In this document: in pieces, positions 20,416 to 33,096 of the stretch | Layout of the letters: each line of letters opens with the position of its first letter | How positions within the stretch are numbered: the stretch's first letter is position 1 | Source: Balneolales bacterium | GTDB taxonomy: Bacteria > Bacteroidota > Rhodothermia > Balneolales > Cyclonatronaceae | Assembly: GCA_020832405.1 (NCBI GenBank) | Contig: JAFIET010000044.1 | Coordinates: 1-33,096 of the forward strand | Reading direction: 5' to 3' | DNA: 33,096 bases | The notes under the pieces: generated by a model | What the model was told of the DNA's origin: nothing | The model's input: the letters and a program-made list of their open reading frames with translations, nothing else | Databases searched by the model: none | Program-made: the position numbers and the translations under genes

Positions 20416-20660
20416 AGCGAGTACAGGCTTTTTAAATTAGAATCATCATATTCTGGGTATAATTACGCAGGAATATACCAGTTCCAATTTAAAGTCAGCT
20501 TATAATTCGACCAACTCTGCCTGGCATTCGATGAAAGTGAGTACGGCTGGACGGCCTCCGGCTTAAACTTGCTGATCAGGCAATTCACTACACCTTACAC
20601 CCGGTACCCTGGCCACCCGGCAAAAAAGCTTGCACGGATACGTACTAAGGAGATAGGCGG
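20416..20660. other. Gap between the lipoprotein gene and the tRNA-like array
   Basis: About 245 bases in which I see no gene, no strong hairpin and no further tRNA-like unit. It probably contains the lipoprotein promoter near 20416-20500, which is AT-rich. Confidence 0.4.
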
Positions 20661-20683
20661 TCCCCAGCCCCAAAACCTCTCCA

Positions 20684-20721
20684 AAACAAAAAAGCCCAAC
20701 CACTCGTAAGTGATTGGGCTT
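20684..20721 (-). terminator. Terminator of tRNA-like copy 1
   Basis: Same hairpin and T-run; only the loop differs (ACG for ACA). It closes the whole array. Confidence 0.82.
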
Positions 20722-20727
20722 CAGTGC

Positions 20728-20824
20728 GATCCGGAAAGCCTGCTCCGACCCATCGGAGGGACTCGGACCCTCGACCTTCCCGAAGTATCGGGACAGGCAT
20801 TCTGACCAGCTGAACTACGGAAAC
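20728..20824 (-). pseudogene. Degenerate tRNA-Asp-like element, copy 1 (distal)
   Basis: Read on the minus strand: GTTTCCG, then TAGTTCAGCTGGTCAGAATG (D-arm like), then TCCCGATACTTCGGGA in place of an anticodon arm. Next is GAGGGTCCGAGTCCCTC, where the invariant TTC of the T-loop has become TCC. A ~20-base insertion carrying CCGATGGGTCGG precedes CCGGATC. The 5' GTTTCCG cannot pair with CCGGATC. It is the most damaged of the three at the T-loop. Confidence 0.75.
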
Positions 20825-20861
20825 GCGTCCCCAGGGGGTCCCCAGCCCCAAAACCTCTCTA

Positions 20862-20899
20862 AAACAAAAAAGCCCAACCACTTGTAAGTAATTGGGCTT
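20862..20899 (-). terminator. Terminator of tRNA-like copy 2
   Basis: Same hairpin and T-run; one stem base differs (GCCCAATTACTT), leaving the stem largely intact. Confidence 0.8.
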
Positions 20900-20905
20900 C
20901 AGTGC

Positions 20906-21002
20906 GATCCGGAAAGCCTGCTCCGACCCATCGGAGGGACTCGAACCCTCGACCTTCCCGAAGTATCGGGACAGACATTCTGACCAGCTGAACTACGGAA
21001 AC
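20906..21002 (-). pseudogene. Degenerate tRNA-Asp-like element, copy 2
   Basis: Same structure as the neighbouring copies: D-arm TAGTTCAGCTGGTCAGAATG, palindrome TCCCGATACTTCGGGA instead of an anticodon arm, intact T-loop TTCGAGT, and an inserted hairpin between the T-arm and the acceptor 3' half. It differs from copy 3 by a few bases, including TCTGTC for CCTGTC before the palindrome. Confidence 0.75.
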
Positions 21003-21039
21003 GCGTCCCCAGGGGTCCGCAGCCCGAAAACCTCTCCAA

Positions 21040-21076
21040 AACAAAAAAGCCCAACCACTTGTAAGTGATTGGGCTT
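21040..21076 (-). terminator. Terminator of tRNA-like copy 3
   Basis: Same GCCCAATCACTT / AGTGGTTGGGC hairpin with a following T-run as after tRNA-Asp. Confidence 0.82.
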
Positions 21077-21082
21077 CAGCGT

Positions 21083-21179
21083 GATCCGGAAAGCCTGCTC
21101 CGACCCATCGGAGGGACTCGAACCCCCGACCTTCCCGAAGTATCGGGACAGGCGCTCTGACCAGCTGAACTACGGAAAC
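21083..21179 (-). pseudogene. Degenerate tRNA-Asp-like element, copy 3 (proximal)
   Basis: The least altered copy in the D- and T-arms: TAGTTCAGCTGGTCAGAGCG and GGGGGTTCGAGTCCCTC. It has the same palindrome in place of the anticodon arm and the same ~20-base insertion before CCGGATC. The perfect stem TCCCGA/TCGGGA closes a four-base loop, so no 7-base anticodon loop can form. Confidence 0.75.
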
Positions 21180-21216
21180 GCGTCCCCAGGGGGTCCCCAG
21201 CCCCAAAACATCCTCA

Positions 21217-21255
21217 AAACAAAAAAGCCCAACCACTTGTAAGTGATTGGGCTTC
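21217..21255 (-). terminator. Terminator after tRNA-Asp
   Basis: On the minus strand GCCCAATCACTT pairs with AGTGGTTGGGC across a three-base loop, with one G-U pair, and TTTTTTG follows. It begins about 8 bases after the tRNA 3' end. Confidence 0.88.
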
Positions 21256-21259
21256 AATG

Positions 21260-21333
21260 CGATCCGGAAGGGACTCGAACCCTCGACCTCCTGCGTGACA
21301 GGCAGGCGTTCTAACCAACTGAACTACCGGACC
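21260..21333 (-). tRNA. tRNA-Asp (anticodon GTC)
   Basis: Read on the minus strand, the acceptor GGTCCGG pairs with CCGGATC with one G-U pair. The D-arm is TAGTTCAGTTGGTTAGAACG. The anticodon arm CCTGC-CTGTCAC-GCAGG places GTC at 34-36. The T-arm is GAGGG-TTCGAGT-CCCTT. The discriminator base is G, as expected for Asp. The length is 74 without CCA, and CCA is not encoded. Confidence 0.95.
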
Positions 21334-21351
21334 TTTTGTTGATAGGCTTTA

Positions 21352-21381
21352 AATATAAGTATATATCAGGGTTCGTGTCAA
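21352..21381 (-). promoter_or_regulatory. Sigma70-type promoter of the tRNA-Asp array
   Basis: On the minus strand TTGACA (21376-21381) is followed after 18 bases by TATATT (21352-21357); TTATAT one base earlier gives an 18-to-17 spacing. The -10 ends 18 bases before the tRNA 5' end at 21333. This is an unusually canonical match for this group, as expected for a stable-RNA promoter. Confidence 0.7.
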
Positions 21382-21455
21382 CCTGTTTTTGCCGAAAACG
21401 AGGCTAAGTCAATAATCAGGTCTCTTAAAATCCTGATATCGCAGATTTATGCCCT

Positions 21456-21605
21456 TCAGTGCGCGAATCTTTTTTTGTCTTTGGTGCCCGTGAGGGTTCT
21501 CACAAGTGCAAGGATACCTTTGCTGATGCCCATAACAGTCTTGGCAAAAACAGTCATGGTTGCGTTGAAAAAGCGGATTCCGAAATTGCTGTGCTGCTTT
21601 TTCAT
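21456..21605 (-). CDS. 49-residue basic peptide with strong ribosome-binding site
   Basis: An ATG at 21603-21605 opens a 49-codon frame ending in TGA at 21456-21458. It begins MKKQHSNFGIRFFNATMTVF and ends TGTKDKKRFAH. The central part (FFNATMTVFAKTVMGISKGI, then LALVRTL) is hydrophobic or amphipathic with basic ends, suggesting membrane association. GGAGG lies seven bases before the ATG, a perfect Shine-Dalgarno site, whereas almost no other gene in this window has one. TATCTTTG, a match to the Bacteroidota -7 box, lies at 21672-21679, about 65 bases upstream. I recognise no family. It reads towards the tRNA-Asp promoter, with about 75 bases between. Its size is below most gene-calling limits. 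Confidence 0.62.
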   Translation of the reverse strand: MKKQHSNFGIRFFNATMTVFAKTVMGISKGILALVRTLTGTKDKKRFAH

Positions 21606-23825: not shown

Positions 23826-26465
23826 ATGCATGTTAACAAGCAGCGAGTTGAAAAACTGAATCCAATACAATCACATCTGATACTAAGATTAAAAGCTAAA
23901 GAAACAATCGGTACCCTGTTCATATTGATGGTGCTCCTTGCCTTTGGGACCGAACTTCTCGCACAGAACAGCGCCCCTGAGCGTTCAGTCCGTGATTTTT
24001 TAGACGAGCACGGCAATTTTCATATCCCGGAAGGGTATCAGGGAAGCCTGGATGTGGCCGGTTTTGACTTCGCCAAAGGGGATGACGGCGCGCCGGTTTT
24101 CAGGCCGGCGGGCACCGGTCATCCCGATAATCAGTTCTGGACCCAACCGGAAAGCTACCTTTGGGGGGCGAACGGGAACGTTTTTTCGATGCTCATTCAT
24201 GGTGATAACCTCTACATTGGTGGTCGGTTTGACCAAATCGGTGATTTGGTTGCCAACAGCATCGTGAGGTATAATCTTACGGATGACAGCTGGCATGCCC
24301 TGGGGGATGGGGTCTTTGGAGAAGTTTGGACGCTTGCAGTGAGCGGAGACGATCTGTATGTAGCGGGTGTTTTTGAAGAAGCCGGTGGCGTATCTGCAAA
24401 GAATATTGCCCGTTACAACCTCATCGACGGCAGCTGGCACCCCCTCGGAAACGGGGTAAACGATAGGGTTTGGACGCTTGCAGTAAGCGGAGATAATCTT
24501 TATGTGGGAGGCAACTTTACAGAGGCTGGTGGCGCACCTGCGAGCCGCATCGCACGGTATGAGCTGTCTGATGGCAGCTGGCATGCGCTTGGTGAGGTAG
24601 CCGGCATTTTGGTATTTGCACTTGCGGTTAGCGGGGATGATCTGCTTGTGGGAGGCGTGTTTACCGGGGCCGGTGGCACGCCCGCAAATAACATCGCGCG
24701 ATACAGGATGACCGATGACAGCTGGCATGCCCTGGGCGAAGGGGTCAGTGATCTGGTTCGGGCACTTGCGGTAAACGGGGATGATCTGTATGTGGGGGGA
24801 CAGTTTACAGAGGCCGGTGGTGCGCCCGCCAGCCGCATTGCCCGGTATAACCTGACCGATAGCAGCTGGCATGCCCTGGGCGGTGGGGTCAACGGTACGG
24901 TACTCGCTCTTGAAATTAGCGGAGATGATTTGTATGCGGGAGGTATGTTCACACAGGCTGATGGCGCACCCGCCAGCCGCATCGCCCGCTTTGAGCCTGC
25001 CGAAGGCAGCTGGCATGCCCTGGGTGACGGGGTGAATAATTCAGTTTGGATCCTTAGGGAAAGCGGGAATGATCTGTTTATGGGAGGGCAATTTAACATG
25101 GCTGGCCACATACCTGCTTTGCGAATGGCAAGGGCTAATATTGAGTCAGCGGTTGTTGAGCCACTGTTTGTTGGCTCTGATAAAGCCTTGAATGCAAACA
25201 TTCTGGCTGCTGCGGTAAGCGGAGATGATCTTTATTTAGGTGGAACATTTACCTATATCGGAGATATGCCCGTAAACAGAATTATTCGCTACAACATCCC
25301 CAATAGCAGCTGGCATACCCTGGGCGACGGGGTCAATCTGGGGATCAGGGCACTTGCAGTAAGCGGGGATGATCTGTACGTGGGGGGCTTTTTTACCGAG
25401 GCCGGGGGCGCGCCCGTAAATAGTATCGCGCGCTACAACCTGACCGAAGGCAGCTGGCATGCCCTGGGTAATGGCGTAAACGGTAATATAAATGCCCTTC
25501 TGATAAGCGGGGACGACCTGTATGTGGGCGGCAGTTTTACCGAAGCCGGCGGCATACCCGCCCGCCGGGTTGCCCGGTATAACCTGACCGATGGCACATG
25601 GCATGCAGTAGGCGACGGGGTCAATAATGTGGTATTCACTCTCGAAAAAAGCGGAGACGAACTGTATGCAGGAGGTTTGTTTACCGAAGCCGGTGGCGTA
25701 CCTGCCGGCCATGTTGCACGGTACAACTTCACCGAAGGCAGCTGGCATGCCCTGGGGGATGGGGTAAACGATGTTGTTGATGCGCTGCTGCTAAGCGGAA
25801 ATGATTTGTATGTAGGGGGATGGTTTACCGAAGCCGGTGGCGCACCCGCCAGCCGTATCGCCCGGTACAGCCTCACCGACGGCACATGGCATACCCTGGG
25901 TGCCGGGGTCAATAATGATGTTTTTGAGCTTAAGGTAAGCGGAGATGATCTGTATGTGGGGGGCAGTTTTACCGAGGCCGGTGACGCGCCCGCGAACCAT
26001 ATCGCGCGCTACAATATGACTGATGGCACATGGCATGCCCTGGGTGACGGGCTCAGCGATTTCGCTTATACGTTTGCGGTAAGCGGGGATGATTTGTATG
26101 TCGGAGGCGGTTTTTTACAGGCAGGGGGAAGGCCCGCTGCTTATTTCGCCCGTTGGAGCGGGCCGGAATTTACCAGCATCGCAGAAGGCGCACAGCTGCC
26201 GCGCAGTATGCACCTCTCCCAAAACTACCCCAACCCCTTCAACCCGACAACCCTCATTGAGTACGCCCTGCCGGAAGCGGCGGAGGTTAGGCTGGAGGTA
26301 TTCAACCTCACGGGTCAGCGGGTGGCGGTGCTGGTGAGCGGTCAGCAGGCAGCGGGCCGCCACAGCGTGAGCTTCGATGCAGGCCGCCTGTCAAGCGGCA
26401 TGTACATCTACCGCCTGCAGGCCGGCAGCTTCGTGCAGACAAGGAAGATGATGCTGGTGAAATAG
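23826..26465 (+). CDS. Secreted 14-repeat beta-propeller protein with T9SS sorting domain
   Basis: This is an exported 879-residue protein of unknown binding function. A signal segment ([18 protein letters not shown]) ends near residue 46 after a ~28-residue basic lead. From residue 119 there are fourteen units of about 48 residues with consensus [19 protein letters not shown] followed by [19 protein letters not shown]. Unit 7 is the most divergent ([18 protein letters not shown] in place of the SWHALG end), which splits the series into 7 + 7. The last ~85 residues are a textbook sorting domain: [20 protein letters not shown], then [14 protein letters not shown], then [10 protein letters not shown] and the MMLVK end. 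The ATG at 23826 is kept as start. No enzyme motif is visible; a scaffold or adhesin role is an inference. Confidence 0.9.
24180..26162 (+). repeat. Fourteen tandem 144-bp coding repeats
   Basis: The 48-residue units correspond to a 144-base period. Recurring words include GATGATCTGTATGTGGG and AGCTGGCATGCCCTGGG. Near-identical stretches between distant units suggest recent duplication or gene conversion within the gene. Confidence 0.88.
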
Positions 26466-27625: not shown

Positions 27626-28591
27626 TCACCGGTTCAGTTCCGCTCTCACTTCGCGCCAGTTGGGGTAGTGGGTGTCCATGAGCTGCCGGAAGCGGGTGTT
27701 GTGGTGGCGTTCGAGCAGGTGCATCATTTCGTGCACGATAATGTACTCGAGGCAGCGCTCGGGCTTTTTGGCGAGTTCGAGGTTGAGGGTGATCCGGGCG
27801 GTTTCGGTGTTGCAGCTGCCCCACTTCGTTTTCATTTGCCGCACCTGCCAGTGGCTGACCTTCACCCCGAGTTTCTGCTCCCATTTTTCGAGCAGGGCCG
27901 GGATTCTCTTTTTGAGCTCGCTGCGGTACCATTCATGGAGGATCCGGCGCTTGTAGGCCGTGCTGATACCATCCGGGAACCCGCGCCCTGATTCCGCGGC
28001 CGGGTTCCGGGCCCCGCCCTTAGCCTCAGCTGAGCCCTGGGTCTCGCCCCCTCCCTCACCCCCGCTTTCGCTTGTGCCGGCGTTCACATTAAGGTATAAA
28101 TCTAAGTAGGTCTTGGCTTTGAGGTCTGCATAGCCGGCGCCTTCCGTGGGTTTGAGGCGCAGCAGGTAGCGGCGGCCCATAAAGTAGTGGCTTTCGCGCT
28201 CTTTGAATTCGCGCGGGGTTTCCCGCTCGTGTTTGAGGAAATTCCGCTGATGACGCCTGATCCAACCGAGCTTCGAAATCACAAACAGGCGCAGGCGGTC
28301 TTCTTTTACGTGCAGGGGCGCAGCTATCCGCACCCGGCCCGTGGGCGGGTACACCGCAAGGTGCATGTTTTTGATATCCTTCAGGATTACATCAATACAA
28401 ATTCCGCTTACCGTGAGCGTCCGCGCGGCGGGACCGCTCAGCAGATCCGTGTCGGCTTCGGTATCTTTTTCGCTGTCCGTTTCAACAGGCCCGTAAGCCC
28501 CGGTTTCGGGTTCTAAGTCTAAGTCCAAGTCCAAGTCCAAATCCAAATCTGAGTGCGTGTTCATTTCTGCGTCCGTGTGCGGCTTTGACAT
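27626..28591 (-). CDS. YgjP-like (DUF45) zinc metallopeptidase, partner of the type I restriction system
   Basis: This 321-residue protein has the YgjP fold of zinc metallopeptidases. Motifs: KTKWGSCNTETARITLNLEL, then YIIVHEMMHLLERHHNTRF, where HEMMH (287-291) supplies two zinc ligands and the catalytic Glu, and a His in ERHH is the likely third. The N-terminus is odd: residues ~16-27 are a pure Leu-Asp repeat encoded by a hexanucleotide repeat. An extra Gly/Glu/Ala-rich stretch (about 172-210, SGGEGGGETQGSAEAKGG) interrupts the middle. Its ATG shares a base with the hsdR stop (TGATG), so translation is coupled. Such genes commonly follow hsdR; the role in restriction is not established. Met10 is an alternative start. 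Confidence 0.9.
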   Translation of the reverse strand: MSKPHTDAEMNTHSDLDLDLDLDLDLEPETGAYGPVETDSEKDTEADTDLLSGPAARTLTVSGICIDVILKDIKNMHLAVYPPTGRVRIAAPLHVKEDRLRLFVISKLGWIRRHQRNFLKHERETPREFKERESHYFMGRRYLLRLKPTEGAGYADLKAKTYLDLYLNVNAGTSESGGEGGGETQGSAEAKGGARNPAAESGRGFPDGISTAYKRRILHEWYRSELKKRIPALLEKWEQKLGVKVSHWQVRQMKTKWGSCNTETARITLNLELAKKPERCLEYIIVHEMMHLLERHHNTRFRQLMDTHYPNWREVRAELNR

Positions 28592-31500
28592 CAGTAGTCC
28601 GGCTGATCTACAATAATCTGGAAAATCGCATCAACTTTTTCTTTGTCGGTGATGCCTTTTTGCCTGAGCACTTCTTCCACTTCAAGCCTCACCCGTTTCG
28701 TTTTAAATTTGTTGTTGCGCCAGGCATCCTGCTTGGTGTACATCACCGCATCATTAAGGGCAAGGGCGAGTTCCTCATCCTGCGCTAAGTTGTCGTAGAG
28801 GGCGCGCTGCGGGGCAGTGCTGATCACCTCCGGATAGCTGCTGCCGGCCTCCGTTTTTCTTACTTTCCGGGCGAGTGCGATAATCTGATCGAGGTAGGCT
28901 TCGTATTCCAGGCTTTGCTCTTTGCGCAGGCGGATGAGCTCGTCGAGCAGGGTGCTCATTTTTTCGAAGTAGGCCGGGTTGGTAAGCTGCTCTTCGATAA
29001 TGACCTTGCGGATGTTGTTTTCCAAGGTTTCGGCCATGGCTTCTTCGTTTTTGCGCGTTTTTTCGGGCACCTGTTCAAGGGCGGCTTTCCCTTCGGAGGC
29101 GAGCAGCTCCACAAGGGAGGTATCCTCGAGTTTGGAAAGTTTGCGGGCCGGGTCAGCATCGAGGTAAAAATCAATCAGCTGCCGCATGCCGGGTTCATAG
29201 CTTTTGAGGTCAACTTTTTCGTTGGCCGCAAGCATGATCTCATCTTTGGTGTGCTGGAAGTGCGTAACCTCGGCTTTTATGCGCAGGCGGTCCCGCTCGT
29301 GGTAGCCGGCAATTTCCATCTCGTCGGCGATGTTGGCGTAGGCGCGCACGAGCCGGCTCACGGCTTTGTAGAGCGCATGCCGCCGCTCCTCGCTTTCTTT
29401 GAGGTCGTCGGGGTTTTCGGGGTCGCCCACAAAGTAGCGCTGATACTGAAGCTGCTCCTTGGGCGGGGCTACCGGTTCGCACATGGCTTTTACGGCTTCC
29501 AGCATTTCTTCGAGCCGGTCTTTGGCGGTTTCGAGCCGGTCTTTGAGCAGGCCCTGTACGTCTTCTTTTTCGTAGGCGTCGAAGGCGCCGGAGGTGTAGT
29601 CGCCGATGGATTGCTCCAGGCTTTTGAACAAATCTTTGTAGTCGATGATGTAGCCGTATTCTTTGCTCTCCCCGTCGAGGCGGTTTACCCGGCAGATGGC
29701 CTGGAACAGCCCGTGATCTTTCATGCTTTTGTCGATATACAGGTAGGTGGCCGGGGGCGCGTCGAAACCGGTGAGCAGCTTATCTACCACAATCAGCAGC
29801 TTCATTTGGCCGGGTTCGTTCACAAACTGCTTCTTTACGTCGAGCTCGAAATCATCTACCCGGGTGTGGGCCTTGTCGGGCTCTATGCGGTAGTAGTCGG
29901 CTATCATCTGCCGGTAAATCCGGTATTTGATGAGCTCTTCGCTTTCCCCGCTGCCGGCATCCTGCAGTTTCACGGAGTTGTGGTCGGGCTTGTAGGAGGT
30001 TACGATGGCGCATTTGTCGAGGCCGAACTGCCGGAACAGATCGTAGTAGCGGCAGGCATTGTACACGCTGTCGGATACCAGCATGGCGTTGCCCTGACCC
30101 GTGCTCAGCCGCTCGGCTTTCTCCATATCCATGATGATGTCGGCTACTATTTTTTCGAGCCGCGATTTGGCGCTGAATACTTTCCGGAGGGTGCCCCAGC
30201 GCGATTTCAGCTCGGCTTTGGCGTAGTCGCTCAGGCCCCGGGTTTTGGTTTCGAACCACTGATCGATGGCATCGTGCGAGCTGATGCGCTGCTCAATATC
30301 ACGGGCTTCGTAGCGAAGGTCGAGCACTACGCCGTCGGCTACGGCTTCGTCGAATTTGTAGGTATGGATGTATTTCCCGAAAACCTCGAGGCTCGTTTGC
30401 TTGTCTTTTTTGAGCAGGGGGGTGCCGGTGAAACCGATAAAGAGCGCCTCCGGCAGCAGCGATTTCATGCCCTCGTGCAGCTTGCCGCTTTGGGTGCGGT
30501 GGCACTCATCTACAAACACATAAATCTCGCCCTTAGCCCGGAAATCGCGGGGCAGGCTGCGCTTGAGCTCGCTGAGGTAGTCGTCCACATCTTTGTCGCT
30601 TGCGTCTTCTTTGCCGCCGAATTTGTGCACCAGCGAGCAGATGAGCCAGGGGGAGTTGCTGTGCAGGGTCGCTATGAGGTCGGCGCCGCTTTTGGTGCGG
30701 TAAATGTTCTCGTTTACGCCGTGATAGACTTTTTCGATCTGCTCGTCGAGCTCTTTGCGGTCGGTGATGATGAGTACCCGCGCCTCTGGGCTGTAGCTGC
30801 GCAGCCATTTGGTGAGCCACACCATGGTGAGGCTTTTGCCGCTGCCCTGCGTGTGCCAGATAATGCCGCCCTCACGCCGGCGGATGTGATCCTGCGCGGC
30901 TTTTACGCCGAAGTACTGATTGGGCCGGCAGAGTTTTTTTACGCCGCCATCAAACACTACAAAGTCGTGAATGAGCTCGAGGAGGCGGGTTTTGTTGAGC
31001 AGCTGACAGATGTGCTTGTCGAGCAGGCTGTCTTCTTCCTTCACGAGGCGGCGCAGCGGGGCGGTAATGCGCAGCAGGTCGGGGTCGTTGGGGTTGCGGG
31101 CAGGGTGCACTTCCTTCCACTGCAGGTAGTATTTGGCCGGGGTGCCGGTTGTGCCGTAGCGCAGGCCCTGCGTGTCGTTGCCGGCCAGCACCAGCTGCAT
31201 GGTGCTGAAAAAAGATTCGGCAAACATCTTTTTCTGACTGTCCCAGTTCTGCCGGATGGCCTCATCTATCAGTACGGTGCTGCGCTTGAGCTCGATGATG
31301 CCGAGGGCGATGCCGTTTACGTATAGCACCAGGTCGGGGCGCTTGGTGTGCTGCCCGCGTATGCTCACCTCCTCGGCTATGCCGAAGTCGTTGGCCTCGG
31401 GGTTCTGCCAGTCGATGAGCTGTACCGTTTCCTTCTGCTGACCCACATCGGGCAGTACGTTCACGCCGTAGCGCAGCAGGGTATAGGTTTCTTTGTTTAC

Positions 31501-31737
31501 GTGATAGGGCTGCTGACTCTGATCTCCGGCGGTTTTGCTGAGCTCGTACAGCGCCCGGGTAATCAGGTTTTTGCTGTAGCCCTGCCGGTGCAGCCAGCGC
31601 TTCAGGTAGTGCTCCTCAATATTGCTGTTGCCCTCCCGCTCGGCCCAATGACCCAGATAGGTGTAGCCCAGCCGGTGAACAAACAGCTTGATGACCCTTT
31701 TTTGGGTGATGCGCTCGGGTTGGCCAACAGTGCTCAT
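28591..31737 (-). CDS. hsdR: Type I restriction enzyme, R (restriction/translocation) subunit
   Basis: HsdR cuts DNA after ATP-driven translocation. From the preferred ATG the protein has 1048 residues, typical of the family. The N-terminal nuclease domain has RPDLVLYVNGIALGIIELKR (the D...ExK core, about 135-155). The SF2 motor has Walker A HTQGSGKSLTMVWLTKW (about 295-312), Walker B as DECH in VFVDECHRTQSGKLH (near 408), motif III FIGFTGTPLL and motif VI QAICRVNRLDG. A helical C-terminal region for binding the methylase core follows. The frame opens at 31863, but the ATG at 31735-31737 starts MSTVGQPERITQKRVIKLF, a usual N-terminus. It overlaps the stop of the preceding 71-residue ORF as ATGA. 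No motif is broken. Confidence 0.95.
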   Translation of the reverse strand: MSTVGQPERITQKRVIKLFVHRLGYTYLGHWAEREGNSNIEEHYLKRWLHRQGYSKNLITRALYELSKTAGDQSQQPYHVNKETYTLLRYGVNVLPDVGQQKETVQLIDWQNPEANDFGIAEEVSIRGQHTKRPDLVLYVNGIALGIIELKRSTVLIDEAIRQNWDSQKKMFAESFFSTMQLVLAGNDTQGLRYGTTGTPAKYYLQWKEVHPARNPNDPDLLRITAPLRRLVKEEDSLLDKHICQLLNKTRLLELIHDFVVFDGGVKKLCRPNQYFGVKAAQDHIRRREGGIIWHTQGSGKSLTMVWLTKWLRSYSPEARVLIITDRKELDEQIEKVYHGVNENIYRTKSGADLIATLHSNSPWLICSLVHKFGGKEDASDKDVDDYLSELKRSLPRDFRAKGEIYVFVDECHRTQSGKLHEGMKSLLPEALFIGFTGTPLLKKDKQTSLEVFGKYIHTYKFDEAVADGVVLDLRYEARDIEQRISSHDAIDQWFETKTRGLSDYAKAELKSRWGTLRKVFSAKSRLEKIVADIIMDMEKAERLSTGQGNAMLVSDSVYNACRYYDLFRQFGLDKCAIVTSYKPDHNSVKLQDAGSGESEELIKYRIYRQMIADYYRIEPDKAHTRVDDFELDVKKQFVNEPGQMKLLIVVDKLLTGFDAPPATYLYIDKSMKDHGLFQAICRVNRLDGESKEYGYIIDYKDLFKSLEQSIGDYTSGAFDAYEKEDVQGLLKDRLETAKDRLEEMLEAVKAMCEPVAPPKEQLQYQRYFVGDPENPDDLKESEERRHALYKAVSRLVRAYANIADEMEIAGYHERDRLRIKAEVTHFQHTKDEIMLAANEKVDLKSYEPGMRQLIDFYLDADPARKLSKLEDTSLVELLASEGKAALEQVPEKTRKNEEAMAETLENNIRKVIIEEQLTNPAYFEKMSTLLDELIRLRKEQSLEYEAYLDQIIALARKVRKTEAGSSYPEVISTAPQRALYDNLAQDEELALALNDAVMYTKQDAWRNNKFKTKRVRLEVEEVLRQKGITDKEKVDAIFQIIVDQPDY

Positions 31738-31949
31738 GGGGTTTCCGGGTTGGGGTGAGCGGAGCTTGTGAGATGCGTGTAGGTGCTGAATCCGGCCTTC
31801 ATTTCTGCGACCCGGCGCTGCATGAAATACGCCAGCTTGCCGGCTGCTGAAAGGCTGCTCCACTCCCCCTTACGTTCAAAGGCGAAGAGGGCATAGAGCA
31901 GGGATGCGCTTGCTGCGGTGAGCCGGACTTCTTTTGAGGGATGTTTCAT
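31734..31949 (-). CDS. 71-residue protein coupled to hsdR
   Basis: This small ORF between hsdS and hsdR ends in an ATGA overlap with the hsdR start, so it is very likely translated. It reads MKHPSKEVRLTAASASLLYA, then LFAFERKGEWSSLSAAGKLA, then YFMQRRVAEMKAGFSTYTHL. I recognise no family. The KLAYFMQR word is loosely like the winged-helix C-terminal region of DarG-type antitoxins ('KL.YFLQ'), but the match is too short to rely on. It starts 69 bases after the hsdS stop. Roles as a restriction modulator or as a translational leader for hsdR are both possible. Confidence 0.6.
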   Translation of the reverse strand: MKHPSKEVRLTAASASLLYALFAFERKGEWSSLSAAGKLAYFMQRRVAEMKAGFSTYTHLTSSAHPNPETP

Positions 31950-32018
31950 AGGGGGATGTTTTTGCCTGAATGCGGGAAGCAGGAAAATGGAGGGGTTTCT
32001 TTTTGGGGAGTTCTGAAA

Positions 32019-33096
32019 TTACACCAGTCGTTTCCTGCCGGTGAGCAGCTCCTGCATCATGCCGGTTTTGAGCTTGCGGTACTTATCAAGCTCCGCTTCA
32101 AGCTGCTCAATCTCAGCATCCATGTCTGAGAGGATTTGGGAGATGCGGATTTGTTCTTCTTGATTTGATGGCAAATGAATTGACATATCAGTTAAGGTAC
32201 CCATACGGATGTAAGGGGTATTTCCTGCATTAACCTCAACATCGATTCTTTCAGAGAGAAATCTGTCAAGATAAGTTTTTATATAAAATATGTCCTCTTC
32301 AAAACCAGTAAGCACATATGTGCGCTGATATGCATTAAACTTTCCTTTGTAATAATGAACATACCCAACATTTTCTCCATTTCCAGATATTAATAATGCT
32401 TCATCGTCAAATGCAAATCTATCTATTTTATAATATTTCTTAGCACAAGTATAAAATCGGTATTGACCATTAGAACTCATTGCATTTGCGTCAAGTTTTC
32501 CGGTTGTTATTTTTGAGCATATTTCCCCCAATCGCTTCACCTTCCAGCCTTCTTTGGGTTTGAGGAGTTCCTGCATCGCGCCTTGTTTTACGGCGCGTTT
32601 TTTGGTGATGAGCTGCTCCTGCGCCTCAATCAGGGCATCCATATCGGACAGGGCAGCGGAAATGGCGGTCTGCTCAGCAAGTGTAGGGGGGAGGGGGATG
32701 GGAAGTATTTTAATTTTTTGAACTGATATTCCGGGCTGAGCAGAAGATTCCGAGTATTGGTTTAAATTCATTCTGCCCAATACATAGTACAACAATAAAA
32801 TATTGGTAAAATTAGTAGGTGTAACAACTACTGCATGCTCTGATGCAAAAAAAGAGCCGGTGACGAATTGTAAGTTCCCGCAGAGTGCTCCTTGTCTGCC
32901 AATTAGAGCGAAGTCTCCCTCATGCGTAAAATTATCTGTATATCCCCTGAGACCATTACCTCCATAACACGGGTAAGAACCACTGTTTTTTATCTTTTTT
33001 GAGGTTATTGAACTGCCACTTTTCATATTACAAACATCCTCTAGCAGAGCAACCTCCCAATCCTCCGGAATCACCCCGACTTCGTTTTGTTTGTAG
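32019..33096 (-). CDS. hsdS: Type I restriction enzyme specificity subunit, 5' end beyond the right edge
   Basis: HsdS carries the two target-recognition domains that set the methylation and cutting site. The frame continues without a stop to the window edge (YKQNEVGVIPEDWEVALLED, a standard near-N-terminal sequence). So the GTG at 33072-33074 is internal and only a few residues are missing. TRD1 runs to PIPLPPTLAEQTAISAALSD, followed by the first conserved helix (SDMDALIEAQEQLITKKRAV, KQGAMQELL). TRD2 begins at WKVKRLGEICSKITTGKLDA and is followed by the second conserved helix (SDMDAEIEQLEAELDKYRKL, KTGMMQELLTGRKRL). The TRD-coding parts are visibly AT-richer than the conserved parts. hsdM is presumably just outside the window. 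Confidence 0.93.
   Translation of the reverse strand, partial: YKQNEVGVIPEDWEVALLEDVCNMKSGSSITSKKIKNSGSYPCYGGNGLRGYTDNFTHEGDFALIGRQGALCGNLQFVTGSFFASEHAVVVTPTNFTNILLLYYVLGRMNLNQYSESSAQPGISVQKIKILPIPLPPTLAEQTAISAALSDMDALIEAQEQLITKKRAVKQGAMQELLKPKEGWKVKRLGEICSKITTGKLDANAMSSNGQYRFYTCAKKYYKIDRFAFDDEALLISGNGENVGYVHYYKGKFNAYQRTYVLTGFEEDIFYIKTYLDRFLSERIDVEVNAGNTPYIRMGTLTDMSIHLPSNQEEQIRISQILSDMDAEIEQLEAELDKYRKLKTGMMQELLTGRKRLV

Follow-up and report, generated by a model that had tools for sequence, protein, structure and literature searches.

SegB of the T-even phages is a free-standing GIY-YIG homing endonuclease encoded among tRNA genes (PMC2988022). It cuts in tRNA genes and, in phage T6, drives a tRNA segment to amplify in tandem (PMC13096335); the cutting motif reported for it is RAWTSGAAC (PMC2988022, PMC13096335). 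Read on the other strand, this motif becomes GTTCSAWTY, which resembles the tRNA T-loop. A comparable arrangement is presented here from contig JAFIET010000044.1 of a Balneolales bacterium (Cyclonatronaceae; assembly GCA_020832405.1), analysed as a whole stretch of 33,096 nt (the window). It comprises an intact tRNA-Asp gene and, behind it, three tandem tRNA-Asp copies that carry hairpins. These three units are probably endonuclease-less remnants of a small mobile unit living at tRNA genes, chromosomal and SegB-like, that were multiplied by recombination; most likely, a chromosomal GIY-YIG unit once occupied this tRNA gene and left the array as its orphan remnant. Compared with SegB, the system considered here belongs to bacterial chromosomes, and its enzyme is a single-domain protein of about 90 aa with putative activity. 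Furthermore, it is accompanied by tRNA halves in which a hairpin takes the place of the anticodon arm or T-loop, and a complete tRNA lies within the unit.

On the minus strand, tRNA-Asp(GTC) is followed by its terminator and then by units of 178, 177, and 178 bp, ending at position 20659 (Table 1). The repeat finder TRF delimited a 178-bp tandem array at 20655-21269 with 94% matches, and alignment gave 94.4-97.2% identity among the three copies and 78-80% between the copies and the tRNA-Asp unit. In all three units, the anticodon arm is swapped for CCTG-TCCCGA-TACT-TCGGGA-AGG, whose hairpin is TCCCGATACTTCGGGA, and a 20-nt hairpin insertion, CCGATGGGTCGGAGCAGGCT, separates the T-arm from the 3' acceptor strand. 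This second insertion is approximately an inverted copy of the first (GCCTGTCCCGA versus TCGGAGCAGGC). An initial annotation had described nearly identical tandem tRNA-Asp-like units, each with its own terminator, a palindrome instead of the anticodon arm, and an insertion of about 20 bases splitting the acceptor end; ARAGORN, Rfam, TRF, the alignment, and the terminator scan, which predicted a copy of the terminator in every unit, bear this out. It had also claimed that D- and T-arm sequence is kept. Such sequence is indeed retained in every unit, but the T-arm is not untouched, the T-loop of copy 1 having changed to GGTCCGA. According to ARAGORN and Rfam, tRNA-Asp(GTC) is the one bona fide tRNA, and a search of the window's own genome found no other tRNA-Asp. 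The array likewise occurs once in this genome and the unit is absent elsewhere in it; the hairpin has four genome-wide matches, three inside the array and one outside. A 132-aa open frame at 20859-21257 (minus strand), beginning VVQLVRAPVPILREGRGFESLRW, runs through units 2 and 3; it consists of translated tRNA copies, which automatic annotation could take for a protein.

Hairpin-bearing tRNA copies are widespread. A pattern consisting of the hairpin in place of the anticodon arm followed by the T-arm matched 116 stretches in 84,980 species genomes, distributed over many tRNA isotypes and many phyla, including Bacteroidota, Balneolota, Verrucomicrobiota, Dehalococcoidia, Patescibacteria, and Nitrospirae, as well as one viral contig. 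The pattern written backwards, used as a control, had no match in 60 relatives. A sister species (G004) carries one unit with both insertions and a different loop, and two genomes from another family of the same order (G058 and G044) harbor a small open reading frame (ORF) surrounded by fragments of tRNA-Asp that share the hairpin stem and differ in their loops. The absence of the unit from related strains, which the initial annotation held would undermine its proposal, is therefore not what was found. The fragments resemble their neighbours: 3' fragments share on average 79% identity (median 91%) with the adjacent tRNA and 62% with tRNAs of other isotypes elsewhere, and the corresponding values for 5' fragments are 73% and 51%. 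The viral contig (L146; IMGVR_UViG_3300031707_006572, predicted to be viral) shows the same arrangement for tRNA-Pro, hairpin-bearing copies surrounding a GIY-YIG ORF and an intact tRNA-Pro gene, and could be a vehicle by which it is transferred.

The typical neighbour of the hairpin-bearing copies, beside an intact tRNA, is a GIY-YIG ORF of about 90 aa. Among the 88 pattern matches flanked by 400 bp or more on each side, a GIY-YIG ORF lies upstream in 47 and downstream in 29 (a match can have one on both sides). Without exception, these ORFs are on the strand of the match, none being on the opposite one. An intact tRNA is found nearby on the same strand in 63 of the 88, and on the opposite strand in none. 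By comparison, of 3560 random positions in the same loci, 11 showed the GIY-YIG association and 62 the association with an intact tRNA. The common layout is (tRNA 5' half with hairpin)n - intact tRNA - terminator - (GIY-YIG - tRNA 3' half with hairpin - terminator)m, either side of which is reduced or multiplied between loci; arrays devoid of the enzyme gene, like that of the window, recur (L040, L062, L094, and L144). A check independent of the hairpin started from the GIY-YIG genes detected by Pfam in relatives. Thirteen of the 53 small GIY-YIG loci lie at most 300 bp downstream of a same-strand tRNA (Gly, Asn, Ser, Val, Met, or Leu), and behind several of these comes a fragment of the same tRNA whose anticodon or T loop holds a hairpin. 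The remaining loci, mostly from a more distant subfamily, are not beside tRNAs. The initial annotation had also raised integration as an explanation for the array. This was worth testing, and the piece it missed is the endonuclease gene that stands beside such copies elsewhere.

With regard to the enzyme, the G060 ORF described below matches PF01541, the GIY-YIG nuclease family, at 1.8e-17, and the ORF of G058 matches it as well. The domain covers the proteins of about 90 aa almost entirely, and the Pfam scan returned no further specific domain. The nuclease that defines a free-standing homing unit is thus present in the family, and the window array, which has no such ORF, is classed as a remnant. 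Structures are available for two small GIY-YIG proteins of the UPF0213/PF01541 type (1zg2 and 1ywl), which by sequence belong to the same fold family and are of similar length, with weak matches (2.6e-07 and 3.1e-04); unlike the units described here, they are hypothetical proteins with no known tRNA linkage. No group I or II intron family from Rfam was found in the window or in the GIY-YIG loci scanned, which represent a minority of the cassettes.

A sister array illustrates how enzyme and units can stand together. On contig C65 of genome G060 (PBR18_bin56, labelled Opitutales), two units are followed by an 89-aa GIY-YIG ORF and then by a third unit, the stop codon of the ORF being the TAG of the next tRNA copy. 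This array has the window's loop, second insertion, and terminator. Its unit A shares 96.0% identity, as well as the D-arm changes, with window unit 1; units B and C retain a tRNA-like D-arm. Since a subtype is common to both arrays, the unit subtypes would therefore be older than the separation of the window and G060 arrays, or would have moved between lineages. For the same reason, that is, the presence of the copy-1 subtype in G060, a single recent tandem duplication, the other finding that the initial annotation had named against itself, is unlikely. In this near relative, array and enzyme gene thus occur together, and a Pfam search of the window's assembly found no small GIY-YIG gene, its two PF01541 matches both lying in long frames (638 and 295 codons). 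The 2-kb DNA flank of the G060 array has no match in 11 genomes. A neighbouring G060 protein has two strong matches, only in G005 and G001, genus-mates of the window's genome, which weakly suggests that the contig belongs to this genus and makes the Opitutales bin label doubtful.

Could the array nevertheless be a plain pseudogene array, in which a decayed tRNA-Asp copy gained two hairpins by chance and unequal crossing-over, without any mobile element, then produced the further copies? The tandem units are equally spaced and the syntenic locus in G005 has no unit, as this explanation would predict, although its multiplication step is common to the mobile-unit interpretation as well. It is made improbable by the substitution of a hairpin at the same place in many phyla and isotypes, next to same-strand GIY-YIG genes, and by the GIY-YIG gene in the G060 array. 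The earlier view that more than simple decay is at work, and that amplification is involved, stands. Even less credible, to the point of being nearly negligible, is that the units are attachment-site scars of islands integrated at the tRNA by tyrosine recombinases. The usual scar of integration at a tRNA site is a 3' tRNA fragment after an intact tRNA, and the 3' fragments found behind the intact tRNA fit this picture. Such a scar should, however, be a faithful copy of the 3' end; the units instead have a hairpin in place of the anticodon arm, and their copied sequence includes the D-arm and terminator. In addition, the recurrent neighbour is a GIY-YIG gene, and no ORF of the window was recognised as an integrase by eye, no profile search having been made.

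Repeats directly after a tRNA gene are also known from Escherichia coli. The tyrT repeats (rtT RNA, RF00391) are 178-bp tandem repeats that contain tRNA 3' sequence. Of the tRNA itself they comprise just the final ~19 bp, and they are not known to carry a hairpin in an anticodon arm. RF00391 had no match in the window at the gathering cut-off, nor in 20500-21500 up to E = 5, and the equal unit length of 178 bp looks like a coincidence.

How, then, would the units arise and persist? In other genomes, the full unit consists of a hairpin-bearing tRNA 5' half, an intact tRNA with its terminator, the GIY-YIG ORF of about 90 aa, a hairpin-bearing 3' half, and a copied terminator. Cleavage, homing, and a role for the hairpin are inferred. 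The free-standing enzyme would cut the tRNA DNA of an uninvaded copy, and repair templated by the invaded copy would introduce the endonuclease gene along with a complete tRNA; the tRNA halves on either side would act as homology arms. Retention of the complete tRNA would allow the host to survive. The hairpin may protect the tRNA halves from recutting by spoiling the cutting site, or may bar them from tRNA function. Finally, recombination among the repeated tRNA and terminator pieces would lead to loss of the enzyme gene or multiplication of the units, and hence to orphan arrays. The window array resembles a SegB-type element in its anatomy, a likeness that does not prove membership in that kind.

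Several points weigh against this scenario. The main gap concerns the intact tRNA next to the element: its anticodon arm is preserved, and why this tRNA escapes cutting is unexplained. Cleavage and movement are deduced from sequence. About half of the hairpin loci have no GIY-YIG ORF, partly through contig ends, and no recognisable GIY-YIG fragment is present in the window array. Moreover, the tentative placement of the G060 contig in the window's genus depends on a single neighbour protein, and the contig is filed under an Opitutales bin.

The hairpins themselves vary. Their loops are all identical in 21 of 27 multi-copy loci, and 87 distinct loops occur across 117 loci. Their stems differ in sequence yet stay complementary, as in TCCGCC/GGCGGA (Met), TCCCGC/GCGGGA (Gly), and CCCCGACAG/CTGTCGGGG (Asn); it is therefore the palindrome, and not its letters, that recurs, and the fixed stem of the first search was an artefact of the pattern used. 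An alternative is that the hairpin is the mobile entity, a short palindrome spread into the loops of structured RNAs by a GIY-YIG nuclease that recognises palindromes, with the tRNA copies as by-products. Hairpins of the same kind occur in D-loops (L114, L115, and L040) and T-loops (L051 and L154), and one GIY-YIG ORF lies within rnpB, between inverted repeats. Among 37 GIY-YIG loci not at tRNAs, a short palindrome is found within 130 bp upstream in 10 and downstream in 9, against 11 of 206 control windows (counts of short perfect stems). A bare palindrome would not be expected to take tRNA halves and terminators along, and outside the array the hairpin occurs only once in the window's genome. 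This explanation is thus rather unlikely, while being the strongest of the competitors. The nuclease may recognise or spread the palindrome; this overlaps with the reading of the array as a GIY-YIG remnant and is inseparable from it by sequence alone.

The GIY-YIG genes at other sites merit a description of their own. In locus L193 (G025:C16:190000-192500, minus strand), the RNase P RNA gene contains, close to the 5' end, a small GIY-YIG ORF flanked by the inverted repeat CCCCGCACATAACATTTA / TAAATGTTATGTGCGGGG, which puts the ORF in the loop of a long hairpin. L206 is a second case of GIY-YIG at rnpB. Four tRNA-unlinked GIY-YIG genes in genomes of the same order (L201, L202, L203, and L205; G025 and G030) have 21-nt palindromes of the ATCCYGAACTTGTTTCRGGAT type on both sides, often oppositely oriented, an arrangement that recalls REP/RAYT. 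The REP/RAYT and the Rickettsia-type palindromic elements are short palindromes spread in genomes, and REP elements have a dedicated enzyme, the RAYT, which is of the HUH/Y1 and not the GIY-YIG type. At the tRNA loci, by contrast with both types of element, tRNA halves and terminators are copied along with the palindrome.

The initial annotation had also offered, as an alternative to recent expansion, use of the copies as small structured RNAs, for example as decoys for tRNA enzymes. Such RNAs would be expressed and kept by selection, and the decoys could act on enzymes that process or modify tRNAs. Retained D- and T-arm sequence and near-identical copies, terminators included, are what such a role would predict. 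Yet consensus and regex scans of 20500-21500 found only one promoter-like site on the array strand, ahead of tRNA-Asp, and none that would serve copies 1-3, and a strong terminator stands ahead of each unit (four predicted in all). The fold energy of the copies is close to that of shuffles (z -0.2 to -0.4, versus -2.05 for tRNA-Asp and -6.45 for the terminator hairpin), and the best predicted fold differs between copies. Because of this promoter, terminator, and folding evidence, the decoy proposal is rejected as very improbable; the altered T-loop of copy 1 and the many relatives that hold just 5' or 3' halves, incapable of a tRNA fold, also argue against it. ARAGORN accepted no copy as a tRNA. 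The Rfam tRNA scores of the copies are 29.1, 23.0, and 22.2 bits, so that copy 2 alone just reaches the cut-off of 29. Instead of the cloverleaf and anticodon loop of a functional tRNA, the copies have a 4-nt-loop hairpin as anticodon arm and an interrupted acceptor side. Overall, the units do not look like working RNAs. A known RNA family was also considered for them and rejected, nothing but tRNA reaching the Rfam cut-off.

Table 1. Features of the tRNA-Asp array, with positions in the window.
Feature	Position	Strand	Evidence
Promoter-like site of tRNA-Asp, TTGACA-18-TATATT	21352..21381	-	Consensus scan (11/12 matches), regex scan
Intact tRNA-Asp(GTC)	21259..21333	-	ARAGORN, Rfam (70.7 bits), own-genome search
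tRNA-Asp terminator, copied in each unit	21224..21255	-	Terminator scan
Unit 3: tRNA-Asp copy with hairpin for anticodon arm, terminator copy, spacer	21014..21191	-	Repeat finder, alignment
Unit 3 hairpin TCCCGATACTTCGGGA, anticodon-arm position	21133..21148	-	Pattern match, alignment
Unit 3 second insertion CCGATGGGTCGGAGCAGGCT	21092..21111	-	Alignment
Unit 3 terminator	21046..21077	-	Terminator scan; fold z -6.45
Unit 2	20837..21013	-	Repeat finder, alignment; Rfam tRNA 29.1 bits at 20932-20997
Unit 2 hairpin, anticodon-arm position	20956..20971	-	Alignment, pattern match
Unit 2 second insertion	20915..20934	-	Alignment
Unit 2 terminator	20869..20900	-	Terminator scan
Unit 1	20659..20836	-	Repeat finder, alignment
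Unit 1 hairpin, anticodon-arm position	20778..20793	-	Alignment, pattern match
Unit 1 second insertion	20737..20756	-	Alignment
Unit 1 terminator	20691..20722	-	Terminator scan

Elsewhere in the window, the large ORF 23826-26465 contains diverged 144-bp (48-codon) tandem repeats at 24477-26114 and ends in a YPNPFNPTT-type motif; it perhaps encodes a repeat-rich surface or secreted protein. ORFs resembling the restriction (28591-31863) and specificity (32019-33074) subunits of a type I restriction-modification system occupy 28591-33074 on the minus strand, and an adjoining ORF (27626-28591) is of the SprT/WLM-like metallopeptidase type, all of these being named by eye.

A broader and more tentative proposal is that these loci represent widespread, apparently undescribed minimal mobile elements, in which a GIY-YIG nuclease of about 90 aa would act on essential structured RNA genes (tRNAs and RNase P RNA) at their hairpin loops. 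At tRNA genes, they would keep or carry a complete copy of the target and leave hairpin-disarmed tRNA halves as scars and homology arms. A search of open-access papers turned up no account of GIY-YIG genes accompanied by hairpin-bearing tRNA copies, a negative that counts as weak evidence of novelty. If the proposal is true, many "tRNA-like" repeats and small GIY-YIG genes in Bacteroidota, Balneolota, and other phyla would belong to one selfish system exploiting indispensable RNA genes, and bacterial chromosomes would join phages as a setting for SegB-type, tRNA-linked homing and amplification. The hairpin-disarmed tRNA halves would then be a readable footprint of this system, which makes the idea testable.
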